Origin: an uncultured Geobacter sp.
GTDB taxonomy: Bacteria > Desulfobacterota > Desulfuromonadia > Geobacterales > CAIOGM01
Assembly: GCA_903857795.1 (NCBI GenBank)
Contig: CAIOGM010000126.1
Location: 1-38,027 of the forward strand
Length of the DNA: 38,027 bases
Direction: 5' to 3'
The position numbers and the translations under genes were made by a program. The notes beneath the pieces were generated by a model, which saw only the letters and a program-made list of their open reading frames with translations, had not been told where the DNA came from and ran no database searches. The first letter of the stretch is position 1. The number at the start of each line of letters is the position of its first letter. Positions 11,038 through 14,377 of the stretch are shown piece by piece.

Positions 11038-12450
11038 TTATTCAGTTTTGCCCTTTATGAAGGTGACAGCACACTCCAGGCGCCGCAGCGTCTCATCCCG
11101 ACCGAGGACGGCGATGACGTCGTAGATGGCCGGTGAGGTGGTGACGCCGCAGAGGGCCACCCGGACCGAGGGGCCGATCCCCCCCATCTTGATCCCCTGG
11201 GCGGCGCAGAACGCCTTGAACAGGGTCTCGATCCCCCCAGGGGTCATCTCCTCCCAGGTGGCCAACTGCTCCCCAAAGGCGCGGAGAAGGGGGAACTGCA
11301 GCGGGGTCAGCTGCTTGGCCGCGGCCGCATCGTCGTACAGCACCTCGCTCCGGTAGTAGAAGAGGGCGCCGTCCGCCAGTTCCAGCATGGTCCTGGCCCG
11401 CTCCTGGAGGGTGGTGATGACCGGGGGGAGCTCCGGACCGCCGTCGGCGGGGTTCACCCCCCGCTCCAGGAGGAAGGGGAGGAGCAACTGCGCCAGCCGG
11501 GCCGGGTCGCCGCTCTTGATGTAGTGGGCGTTGAGCCAGAGGAGCTTGTCCGGATTGAAGACTCCTGCGGACTTGCCGATCCCCTCCACGGTGAACTTCT
11601 CAATGAGCTCTTCCCTGCTGAAGATCTCGTCGTCGCCGTGGCTCCACCCCAGGCGGACCAGATAGTTGATCATCGCCTCGGGGAGATACCCCATATCCCG
11701 ATAGGCCATGACGCTGGTGGCGCCGTGACGCTTGGAGAGCCGGCTCTTGTCGCTCCCCAGGATCATCGGGACATGGGCGAAGCGGGGGACCGGGAAGCCG
11801 AGGGCCTCGTAGAGGAGGATCTGGCGGGGGGTGTTGCTGATGTGGTCGTCACCGCGGATGACGGTGGAGATCCGCATGGTGGCGTCGTCGATGACCACGG
11901 TGAAGTTGTAGATGGGGGTCCCGTCGCTCCGCTGGATGATCAGGTCGTCCAGCTCCTCGTTGTTGAAGGAGATCGGCCCCTTGACCAGGTCGTCGAAGGC
12001 GGTGACCCCCTCCTGGGGAGCCCGGAAGCGGACCACGAACGGCTTGCCGGCGGGCTCTCCGCTGAGGCCGCGGCAGCTCCCGTCGTACTTGGGTTTGCGC
12101 CCTTCGGCCAGGGCCGCCTCCCGCTTTGCCTCAAGCTCCTCGGCGCTGCAGTAGCAGCGGTAGGCTTTCCCCTGCTCCAGCAGCGTCCGGACATACTCCC
12201 GGTAGACAGGGAAGAGGTCGGACTGAAAGAAGGGCCCCTCGTCCCAGTCGAGCCCCAGCCACTCCATCCCTTCCAGGATGGCGTTGACCGACTCCTCGGT
12301 GGAGCGGGCCACATCGGTGTCCTCGATCCGGAGGATGAAGGTTCCTCCCAGCTTGCGGGCCAGGAGCCAGTTGAAGAGGGCGGTGCGGGCGCCCCCCACA
12401 TGGAGATAGCCGGTAGGGCTGGGGGCGAAGCGGAGACGGATATCGGACAT
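11038..12450 (-). CDS. gltX: Glutamate--tRNA ligase
   Basis: 470 residues from the ATG at 12450; an upstream extension runs into a repeat element and is discarded because CGGAG lies 7 bases before this ATG and the protein then begins '[20 protein letters not shown]', the family N-terminus. The class I HIGH signature is within '[19 protein letters not shown]' and the KMSKS equivalent is '[13 protein letters not shown]'. Other blocks include '[10 protein letters not shown]', '[12 protein letters not shown]' and the C-terminal anticodon-binding helical domain. It charges tRNA-Glu, and in organisms lacking GlnRS also tRNA-Gln. Downstream of yacG on the same strand, but separated by a 210-base gap that holds a large inverted repeat. 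Confidence 0.96.
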
Positions 12451-12478
12451 TGGGTAACTCCGTAATACAGATGGTTGA

Positions 12479-12642
12479 ACCACGGAGACACGGAGACACG
12501 GAGGAAAACCATGTAACAGGGATGCACGGGATATACAGGATGAGTTCATACCTTTGAGTATCCAAAGGCCTTATCCTATTCATCCTGTCCATCCCTGTTA
12601 AGTTAAGCTCTGGTCTGCTCCGTGTCTCCGTGTCTCCGTGGT
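12479..12642. repeat. Long nested inverted repeat (CACGGAGA element)
   Basis: The outer arms (12479-12503 and 12618-12642) are 25-bp perfect inverted repeats built from the tandem unit CACGGAGA. Inside are two further paired blocks: AACAGGGATG (12515-12524) with its complement at 12590-12599, and ACAGGATGA (12535-12543) with 12580-12588. The whole could form a single hairpin or cruciform of about 164 bases. It fills most of the yacG-gltX gap (12451-12660); no promoter or gene is evident in the remainder. Confidence 0.92.
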
Positions 12643-12660
12643 GGATTGTTGTTCTCGGTG

Positions 12661-12840
12661 TTAAGGTTTTTCTTCGTCGGGGGTGGCCTCTTCCAGGCGG
12701 AACTCCTCCGCGGGAACGCGGTACTCCTCGAAGACCCAGGCCCCCAGATCGCGGGTCCGGCACCGTTGTGAACAGAAGGGGCGGGTGGCGTTCCCCTCCC
12801 ATTGAACACTCTTCTTGCAGATGGGGCAGCTGATCAGCAT
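12661..12840 (-). CDS. yacG: DNA gyrase inhibitor YacG (zinc-finger protein)
   Basis: A 59-residue frame beginning 'MLISCPICKKSVQWEGNATR'. The four zinc ligands are Cys5, Cys8, Cys23 and Cys27 (C-x2-C-x14-C-x3-C), the YacG pattern, followed by the family's 'CRTRDLGAWVFEEYRVP' and an acidic tail. YacG of E. coli binds GyrB and inhibits gyrase; that role is assumed by homology. It starts four bases after the metG stop, so it is co-transcribed with metG. The GGAAGAGAG purine stretch at the end of metG may serve as the ribosome-binding site. Confidence 0.9.
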   Translation of the reverse strand: MLISCPICKKSVQWEGNATRPFCSQRCRTRDLGAWVFEEYRVPAEEFRLEEATPDEEKP

Positions 12841-12844
12841 GGCG

Positions 12845-14377
12845 TCAGCTCTCTTCCTTGGTATCGATCCTCGGGAAGAGTGGTTCCGCCTTCTGCACGA
12901 TGGTCCCCGGGGCTAGTCCCCCCCAGGTGAAGAGCGCCTCCCCGGAGATCCCGGTCACGCCGAGGCAGGCGAGCGCCTTGGCGGAGGTGGTGGGCATGAA
13001 GGCGGCCAGGAGGGTGTGGACCATCCTCTGGGACTCCAGCAGATAGTACATGACGGTTCCCAGCCGCTCCCGCTGCGCCGGATTCTTGGCCAGGGTCCAG
13101 GGGGCGGTCTCGTCGATATACTTGTTCCCCGCGGAGATGACCTCCCAGACAGACTGAAGAGCCTTGCTGAAGGCCATATCGGAGAGATGACGATCCACCT
13201 GCAGGACCATCGCCTCCGTGGCGTTTCGGTAGGCGGAGTCCAGCTCCGTGGCCTCCCCCGGTTGGGGCGCCACGCCGCCGAAGTATTTGGCCAGCATGGC
13301 GGTGGAGCGGGAGAGGAGATTCCCCAGGTCGTTGGCCAGGTCCGAGTTGATCCGGTGAACCAGGGCCGTGTGGGAGAAGTCGCCGTCCAGGCCGAAGGGA
13401 ACCTCCCGGAGGAGGAAGTACCGGACCGCATCGACCCCGTACTTGTCGATGAGCATGTTGGGCTCCACCACGTTCTGGAGGCTCTTGCTCATCTTCTGCC
13501 CCTCAACGGTCCACCAGCCGTGGGCGAAGACCTTCCCCGGCAGCGGCATCCCGGCGGCCATGAGGAAGGTGGGCCAGTAGACGGCATGGAACCGGAGGAT
13601 GTCCTTGCCGATGAGGTGCACGTCCACCGGCCAGTAGCGGTCGAAGTTCCCCCCCTCGTCGGGGTAGCCGAGGCCGGTGATGTAGTTGGCCAAGGCGTCG
13701 AACCAGACGTAGATGATGTGCCGGGGGTTGCCGGGGACCGGGATTCCCCAGGTGAACGAGGTGCGGGAGACGGAGAGGTCGCGCAGCCCCTCCTTTACGA
13801 AAGAGACGATCTCGTTGCGCCGGGACTTGGGCTGGATGAAGTCGGGGTTGGCCTCGATGTGGGCCAGGAGCTGCTCCTGGTACTTGCTCATCCGGAAGAA
13901 ATACGACTCCTCCTTCAGCTTTTCCGTGGGGCGGTTGCAGTCGGGACACTTGTAGTCGATGAGCTGGGTCTCGGTCCAGAAGGTCTCGCAGGGGGTGCAG
14001 TACCAGTCCTCATACTCCCCCAGGTAGATGTCCCCCTGAGCCAGCACCTTGGCGAAGAGGTGGGAGACCCCCTGCTTATGCCGTTCCTGGGTGGTCCGGA
14101 TGAAGTCGGTGGTGGAGATCTCCAGCTTCTCCCAGAGCGCCTGGAAGCGGGTGACCACCCGGTCGGCCAGCTCCAGGGGGGTCTCGCCGGCGGCGGTGGC
14201 CACCTTTTCCACCTTCTGGCCGTGCTCGTCGGTGCCGGTGAGGAAGAAGACATCGTCCCCTTTCAGCCGCCGGTAGCGGGCCAGCACATCGGCGGCAACG
14301 GTGGTGTAGGCATGACCGATGTGGGGGACGTCATTGACATAGTAGATGGGGGTGGTGACGTAGAATGGTCTGCTCAT
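12845..14377 (-). CDS. metG: Methionine--tRNA ligase
   Basis: 510 residues. The class I HIGH motif is in 'TTPIYYVNDVPHIGHAYTT'. A zinc-binding insertion shows paired cysteines ('CTPCETFW' and 'YKCPDCNRP'). The KMSKS motif is 'EGQKMSKSLQNVVEP', and anticodon-domain residues follow ('LANDLGNLLSR'). There is no C-terminal tRNA-binding (EMAP-like) extension, so it is the short form. It charges tRNA-Met. The start overlaps the ricT stop (ATGA) and yacG follows four bases after its stop, so all three are in one operon. Confidence 0.96.
   Translation of the reverse strand: MSRPFYVTTPIYYVNDVPHIGHAYTTVAADVLARYRRLKGDDVFFLTGTDEHGQKVEKVATAAGETPLELADRVVTRFQALWEKLEISTTDFIRTTQERHKQGVSHLFAKVLAQGDIYLGEYEDWYCTPCETFWTETQLIDYKCPDCNRPTEKLKEESYFFRMSKYQEQLLAHIEANPDFIQPKSRRNEIVSFVKEGLRDLSVSRTSFTWGIPVPGNPRHIIYVWFDALANYITGLGYPDEGGNFDRYWPVDVHLIGKDILRFHAVYWPTFLMAAGMPLPGKVFAHGWWTVEGQKMSKSLQNVVEPNMLIDKYGVDAVRYFLLREVPFGLDGDFSHTALVHRINSDLANDLGNLLSRSTAMLAKYFGGVAPQPGEATELDSAYRNATEAMVLQVDRHLSDMAFSKALQSVWEVISAGNKYIDETAPWTLAKNPAQRERLGTVMYYLLESQRMVHTLLAAFMPTTSAKALACLGVTGISGEALFTWGGLAPGTIVQKAEPLFPRIDTKEES

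Follow-up and report, generated by a model that had tools for sequence, protein, structure and literature searches.

A nested palindromic repeat between yacG and gltX in an uncultured Geobacter, proposed as a gene-less relative of arm-flanked GxxExxY nuclease genes

The window analysed here is a 38,027-nucleotide contig of an uncultured Geobacter sp. (assembly GCA_903857795.1, contig CAIOGM010000126.1), which carries a large nested palindrome between two genes that we take to be yacG and gltX, as in a first-pass annotation of the sequence. This palindrome is a dispersed, non-autonomous repeat with a member of a second repeat family nested inside it. Two features go beyond that annotation, namely the second family and a GxxExxY nuclease gene that lies elsewhere in the same genome between arms of the same type. 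We lean towards reading the window palindrome as a gene-less copy belonging to a GxxExxY nuclease system, which would operate in the manner of the RAYT/REPIN system with an unrelated enzyme.

The outer arms of the palindrome (Table 1) are 25 nt long, perfectly complementary and separated by 114 nt, and each consists of three CACGGAG units in tandem with a period of 8 nt. Between them lie two inner arms of 31 nt, 81% complementary, built from ACAGGGAT/ACAGGAT units. The perfect 25-bp outer repeats, their make-up as short tandem arrays and the further paired blocks inside them had all been described in the first-pass annotation and are borne out. Two repeat families are present at this site, an ACAGGAT-type palindrome being nested inside a CACGGAG palindrome, and matches to the inner units at other places are exact (ACAGGGAT..CAGGAT). 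The palindrome fills the whole gap from the yacG stop codon to the gltX ribosome-binding site, and the plus strand from 12460 to 12660 folds with an energy of -106.4 kcal/mol, compared with -57.1 kcal/mol (standard deviation 4.4) for 200 dinucleotide shuffles of the same stretch (z -11.3, 0/200 as low). The strong hairpin would also suit a transcription terminator, or a palindrome that arose by chance. However, a reading of the window sequence finds no T-run beside either outer arm, as an intrinsic terminator would have, the arms are arrays of units, and there are dozens of copies. The structure is more than a terminator, as had been proposed, and a chance palindrome is refuted by the fold energy relative to the shuffles together with the copy number, leaving both explanations with a negligible chance of being correct. 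A Rfam scan gave nothing near the gathering score.

The window genome (G000, 4.05 Mb in 179 contigs) gave 73 BLAST matches to the whole element and 69 matches to a single arm with at most one mismatch. Once clustered and read, these matches resolve into about 35 sites with CACGGAG arms, so that the arm is far from being a single-copy sequence. In a genome of the same genus (G002), the gap between yacG and gltX measures about 12 nt and is free of the element, and in two relatives (G001 and G003) it also bears a palindrome, the G003 copy having degraded outer arms and a retained inner palindrome. No target duplication was recognised when the window copy was compared with the empty site of G002. 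The dispersed family, the same-genus empty site and the 5-bp duplications found at a fixed offset in 5 of 45 related copies support the interpretation, already suggested in the annotation, of a non-autonomous palindromic mobile element. An element in this gap might also change how yacG and gltX are expressed together, as the annotation proposed. Candidate empty sites for two other copies were rejected: the left- and right-flank matches of the L048 copy fall on different contigs, and those of the L049 copy are restricted to the right side. Some loci also contain other palindromes. One with GTCATCCTGA..GAAGGATCT-like arms is seen in L049 (37-312), L053 and L065, sitting within the CACGGAG element in L065 and partly so in L053, and in L062 (1400-1967) a palindrome CACACGGATGACACAGAT / TCCGTGTCATCCGTGTG adjoins the CACGGAG palindrome.

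The sole PF13366 gene of the window genome is an open reading frame (ORF) of 136 aa enclosed by CACGGAG arms that lie 430 bp apart (G000:C78:16831-17258) and are 30 nt long and perfect. The left arm encodes the start of the protein, and the right arm follows the stop codon. The protein matches TIGR04256 'GxxExxY' with an E value of 3e-43 and PDDEXK_3 with 4e-41, PF13366 being its only Pfam match. Database searches gave nothing but a weak Cas4 match (E 0.006) in PADLOC, no match in PHROGs and, by sequence, no match in the PDB. In L098 (1492-1902) an arm is translated as the protein N-terminus (MIEPRRHGGTEK), and such arms can therefore yield similar short peptides in gene predictions.

Inverted arms around this gene are not peculiar to the window genome. 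PF13366 is present in 31 of the 38 genomes searched, G000 counted, with 91 matches, one of them in G000 and 3-10 in each of the other three genomes of its genus. For 68 of these matches, fragments and lower-scoring rows having been omitted, inverted arms were found within 300 bp on either side in 55, compared with 5.6% of 2904 mismatched-genome pairs and 0/680 shuffles. The type of unit varies by gene and includes CACGGAG, CACGAAG, CGCAAAG, CACAGAG, ACGCGGAT, CACGAAT, CGCAACG and ACAGGGAT/ACAGGAT. A wider set was obtained by comparing six GxxExxY proteins with 84,980 species genomes and taking 80 of the 556 confirmed candidates. Judging from the record titles, we take these loci to belong to Cyanobacteria, Planctomycetes, Acidobacteria, Bacteroidetes, Verrucomicrobia, Chloroflexi, Nitrospirae, several proteobacterial classes and others. 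Arms are present in 64 of the 80, mostly as tandem CRCNNAG units, as against 9/640 windows drawn at random from the same loci and 223/2000 mismatched pairs. With 200-bp flanks, and with 78 of the 80 loci used, 59 GxxExxY loci have arms versus 3 of 262 neighbouring ORFs of 90-350 aa, and a strict test for inverted tandem CRCNNA units gives 37/78 versus 0/262. The association of the GxxExxY nuclease gene with inverted arms is firm and recurs in many phyla.

The threshold for arms is passed by 110 of 156 loci (76 from relatives and the 80 of the many-phyla set), and in these the similarity of the flanks drops to background immediately outside the arms. Near spacings between units inside the arms are 8 nt in 171 cases, 9 nt in 90 and 10 nt in 14. 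The similarity of the arms, compared without regard to orientation in 57 of the 80 loci, correlates with the identity of the proteins (Mantel rho 0.28, 0/999 permutations as high), while the control with outer flanks gives a rho of 0.07 (11/999 permutations). In the genome G011 (C3:169505-172251), three GxxExxY genes (L090, L116 and L118) stand in a row, each with CACGAAA-type arms, and their proteins are 99-100% identical, which points to a recent amplification.

An AlphaFold2 model built from 39 GxxExxY sequences has a predicted local distance difference test score of 96, the alignment having been reduced from 55 to 46 and then to 39 rows by the removal of L172 and L226, which contain stops, and of others by choice. 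The D, E and K of the PD-(D/E)XK motif are invariant in 39/39 sequences. Foldseek gave no match below 0.001, its top rows being SSO0001, which we take to be Cas4, and an archaeal Holliday junction resolvase. With VIA-align, SSO0001 scores Z 9.0 (88 residues, 2.2 Å) and AF1548 8.2 (84 residues, 2.4 Å), and EcoRV (7.0; 100 residues, 3.3 Å) and the Hjc resolvase (6.7; 83 residues, 3.1 Å) fall below a Z of 8, where a score may reflect merely a common arrangement. Given the VIA-align matches, the invariant D, E and K and the Pfam assignment, it is safe to describe the GxxExxY protein as a predicted PD-(D/E)XK nuclease. It is attractive to suppose that such an enzyme, living in palindromes, may have a junction-cutting activity.

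At one site, flanked by ORFs presumed to encode methylmalonyl-CoA mutase and epimerase, the same GxxExxY gene occurs in four genomes of the window genus, with a ratio of nonsynonymous to synonymous substitution (dN/dS) of 0.05-0.09. The right arm, which is noncoding, has 0-2 differences per 40 nt among three species, despite a proportion of synonymous differences (pS) of about 0.4. Comparison of these sequences indicates that the gene is under purifying selection. In another family, two genomes (G025 and G037) also have the gene at this site, with CACAGAG-type arms at a different spacing, and both arms have changed together between lineages. A further candidate for this site, L087, has a different upstream flank and was not counted. 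The low dN/dS and the site fixed in four species speak for a retained function, and this would suit GxxExxY being a host-domesticated DNA-binding or repair protein, with the palindromes as its regulatory targets and not a means of spread. Such a role is improbable, given that the catalytic D, E and K are invariant in 39/39 sequences, that the palindromes multiply and that their presence differs between genomes of the same genus.

The proposal that we favour starts from a gene-bearing form, in which a GxxExxY gene lies between inverted arms of two to four tandem CRCNNAG heptads, 8-10 nt apart, the heptad being CACGGAG in the window. The protein may recognise its own arm type, either as tandem units or as the cruciform or hairpin formed by the inverted arms, and may cut at these arms. 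Repair after cutting would then spread or homogenise palindromes of that arm type, and the nuclease gene would meanwhile remain at fixed intergenic sites. We infer arm binding, cutting and nuclease-driven spread of the palindromes in this way. The window copy is a CACGGAG element with a nested ACAGGAT-type palindrome, whose arm type is also seen around other GxxExxY genes.

The nearest working model for such a system is RAYT/REPIN, where a vertically inherited single-copy transposase is accompanied by non-autonomous palindromes (PMC8049555). By analogy, the GxxExxY system would have, inside inverted repeats, a gene that has been kept for a long time and encodes an enzyme that cuts DNA, here a predicted nuclease, together with many dispersed, intergenic and gene-less cognate palindromes. 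In contrast to RAYT/REPIN, the predicted enzyme is of the PD-(D/E)XK type and not a Y1/HUH transposase (PMC8266576), the arms are tandem CRCNNAG heptads, with no GTAG at their ends in the sequences that were read, and the elements, which are larger, occur in many phyla. With a different enzyme and a different repeat signature, the GxxExxY system is not a RAYT/REPIN member. A Y1_Tnp/RAYT protein was also considered as the partner of the palindromes and rejected, as none of the five PF01797 loci of G000 has CRC units at its flanks. More tentatively, GxxExxY genes, together with the inverted arrays of tandem heptads on either side of them, may form an unrecognised class of mobile or self-spreading prokaryotic elements present in many phyla, with nuclease and arm matched to each other, in which the CACGGAG, CGCAAAG, CACGAAG and ACAGGAT palindromes could be of one kind.

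Counts of cognate palindromes in the 38 genomes bear on this matching. The exact CACGGAG arm, CCACGGAGACACGGAG, has counts of 15, 19, 20, 12 and 8 in G000-G003 and G005, and none of the other 33 genomes has more than 3. The five genomes with the high counts all carry a GxxExxY gene flanked by CACGGAG arms. The gene of G004 passes the 2-mismatch rule for CACGGAG arms, yet this genome has no copies. Rank tests between gene and palindrome give p values of 2e-5 for CACGGAG, 7e-4 for CACGAAG and 0.02 for both CGCAAAG and CGCAACG, in tests that ignore relatedness and with a 2-mismatch rule that blurs similar unit types. The genome G036 has 21 exact CGCAAAG arm matches and no PF13366 match in an assembly that is 78% complete.

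A number of observations weigh against nuclease-driven spread as proposed above. Four of the five CACGGAG-rich genomes belong to one genus, and without the window genus the p values become 0.05 for CACGGAG, 0.03 each for CACGAAG, CGCAAAG and CGCAACG, and 0.17 for ACAGGAT, a type whose counts show no association with a matching gene even in the full set (p 0.34) and which has 72 matches in G003, where no matching gene was detected. CGCAAAG has 51-64 exact matches in G029, G032 and G023, where no cognate gene was detected, and 17 in G021, which has no PF13366 match, while the total of palindromes is weakly lower in genomes lacking PF13366 (median 4 versus 15, p 0.05). Arms are below threshold in 13 of the 68 loci of the relatives and in 16 of the 80 loci of the many-phyla set, and L144 has M where the K of the catalytic motif is expected. 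Two shared sites bear a CACGGAG palindrome in G000 and a GxxExxY gene in G003, G001, G034 or G025, the gene being broken in G001. The palindromes and the genes differ there in arm units and in inner sequence, meaning that the palindromes are not simple deletion derivatives. The place has been reused through an exchange of arm and core, not through mere loss of the gene, and the idea that the gene-bearing form simply decays into palindromes finds no support at these sites.

The ends of the copies add to these difficulties. Many of the 45 CACGGAG copies, taken from four genomes and aligned on their arms, end in CCTA..TAGG, some 18 nt beyond the arms, and an exact 5-bp duplication is found at one fixed offset, just outside these ends, in 5/45, compared with a mean of 0.41 and a maximum of 3 in permutations. 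Recent CGCAAAG copies of G002 lie inside a larger MITE-like repeat (MITE, miniature inverted-repeat transposable element) with the ends CTAGTACCC[CT]GTCCGGCTT, and GxxExxY loci have no duplication at any single offset. The CCTA..TAGG ends and the duplications fit a DDE transposase, and some of the amplification looks MITE-like, with DDE-type events carrying palindromes of the CACGGAG family and the CGCAAAG palindromes of G002. The G002 repeat is seen in L243, L245-L248, L252 and L257-L262, several copies being at contig ends. Window-type palindromes are indeed like MITEs in being non-autonomous and dispersed, with inverted ends and some 5-bp duplications. They could then be ordinary MITEs, in which a DDE transposase acts on the outer ends, the arms are just inner sequence and GxxExxY is a passenger. 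However, the GxxExxY-bearing forms differ from MITEs in having neither a duplication nor ends outside the arms, and the loci of many phyla have only the arms in common (110 loci). A passenger gene would leave unexplained both the excess of arms over neighbouring ORFs (59/78 versus 3/262) and the tracking of protein by arm, and no autonomous DDE element with these ends turned up, though no systematic search was made. We therefore consider the ordinary MITE as an account of the whole system unlikely, and retain the nuclease-based proposal.

Palindromes of this kind have been reported before. Aklujkar et al. (2009) described inverted pairs of triple tandem TCTCCGTS[Y] repeats in G. metallireducens, which they assigned to class 2 of putative global regulator binding sites, with IHF/HU as possible binding proteins, and which are absent from G. 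sulfurreducens (PMC2700814). The window arms are of this type by comparison with the legend text of that paper, whose passages on them link neither a nuclease gene nor other phyla (PMC2700814). Palindromic multicopy families are also described for G. bemidjiensis in a 2010 paper (PMC2996986). The resemblance raises the alternative that a global regulator, or a nucleoid protein such as IHF/HU, binds at the palindromes, their spread being incidental. This is very improbable, since nuclease genes lie between such arms in many phyla, the unit sequence varies among lineages and a genome of the same genus lacks the window copy. In L066 (1513-1920), a CACTGAGCAACGGAGCAAC-armed palindrome lies within a CACGGAG palindrome and resembles class 1 (GTTGCTYN) of the same paper (PMC2700814). 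No literature tying the GxxExxY family (TIGR04256, PF13366) to repeats was found in a search that left bioRxiv uncovered and included few subscription papers.

The nuclease-based proposal would give a functional hypothesis and a substrate to a widespread protein family that is recorded merely as a motif name, and would tie it to interspersed bacterial palindromes that had been seen previously and left unexplained. It would also provide a nuclease-based counterpart to RAYT/REPIN that is open to direct test.

Table 1. Positions, in the window, of the palindrome arms and of the surrounding genes
Feature	Position	Strand	Basis
Left outer arm, three tandem CACGGAG units	12479..12503	+	Arm complementarity; same arms at about 35 places in the genome and around the GxxExxY gene
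Right outer arm, repeating the left one in inverted orientation	12618..12642	-	100% complementarity
Left inner arm, ACAGGGAT/ACAGGAT units, second nested palindrome family	12514..12544	+	81% complementarity
Right inner arm	12570..12600	-	81% complementarity
Intergenic gap holding the element, yacG stop to gltX start	12451..12660	.	About 12 nt in the relative G002
gltX (presumed), glutamyl-tRNA synthetase, neighbour	11038..12450	-	ORF list; start 12450
yacG (presumed), 59 aa, zinc-binding, neighbour	12661..12840	-	ORF list
metG	12845..14377	-	ORF list

The minus strand encodes gltX, yacG and metG, the last of which lies upstream. A longer gltX ORF starting at 12549 is a mechanical call, and the start was taken as that given in Table 1.

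Two of the loci with Y1_Tnp genes have palindromic flanks of their own. In L043 (G000:C90:61471-61722), a RAYT-like Y1_Tnp gene is flanked by long GTAG-tagged palindromes, and a classical RAYT/REP set therefore appears to coexist in the window genome. In L039 (G000:C148:14266-14589), a perfect inverted repeat of 28 nt, GGGGGACGTTCATGCAATTATGCGTTGC, flanks a Y1_Tnp gene.
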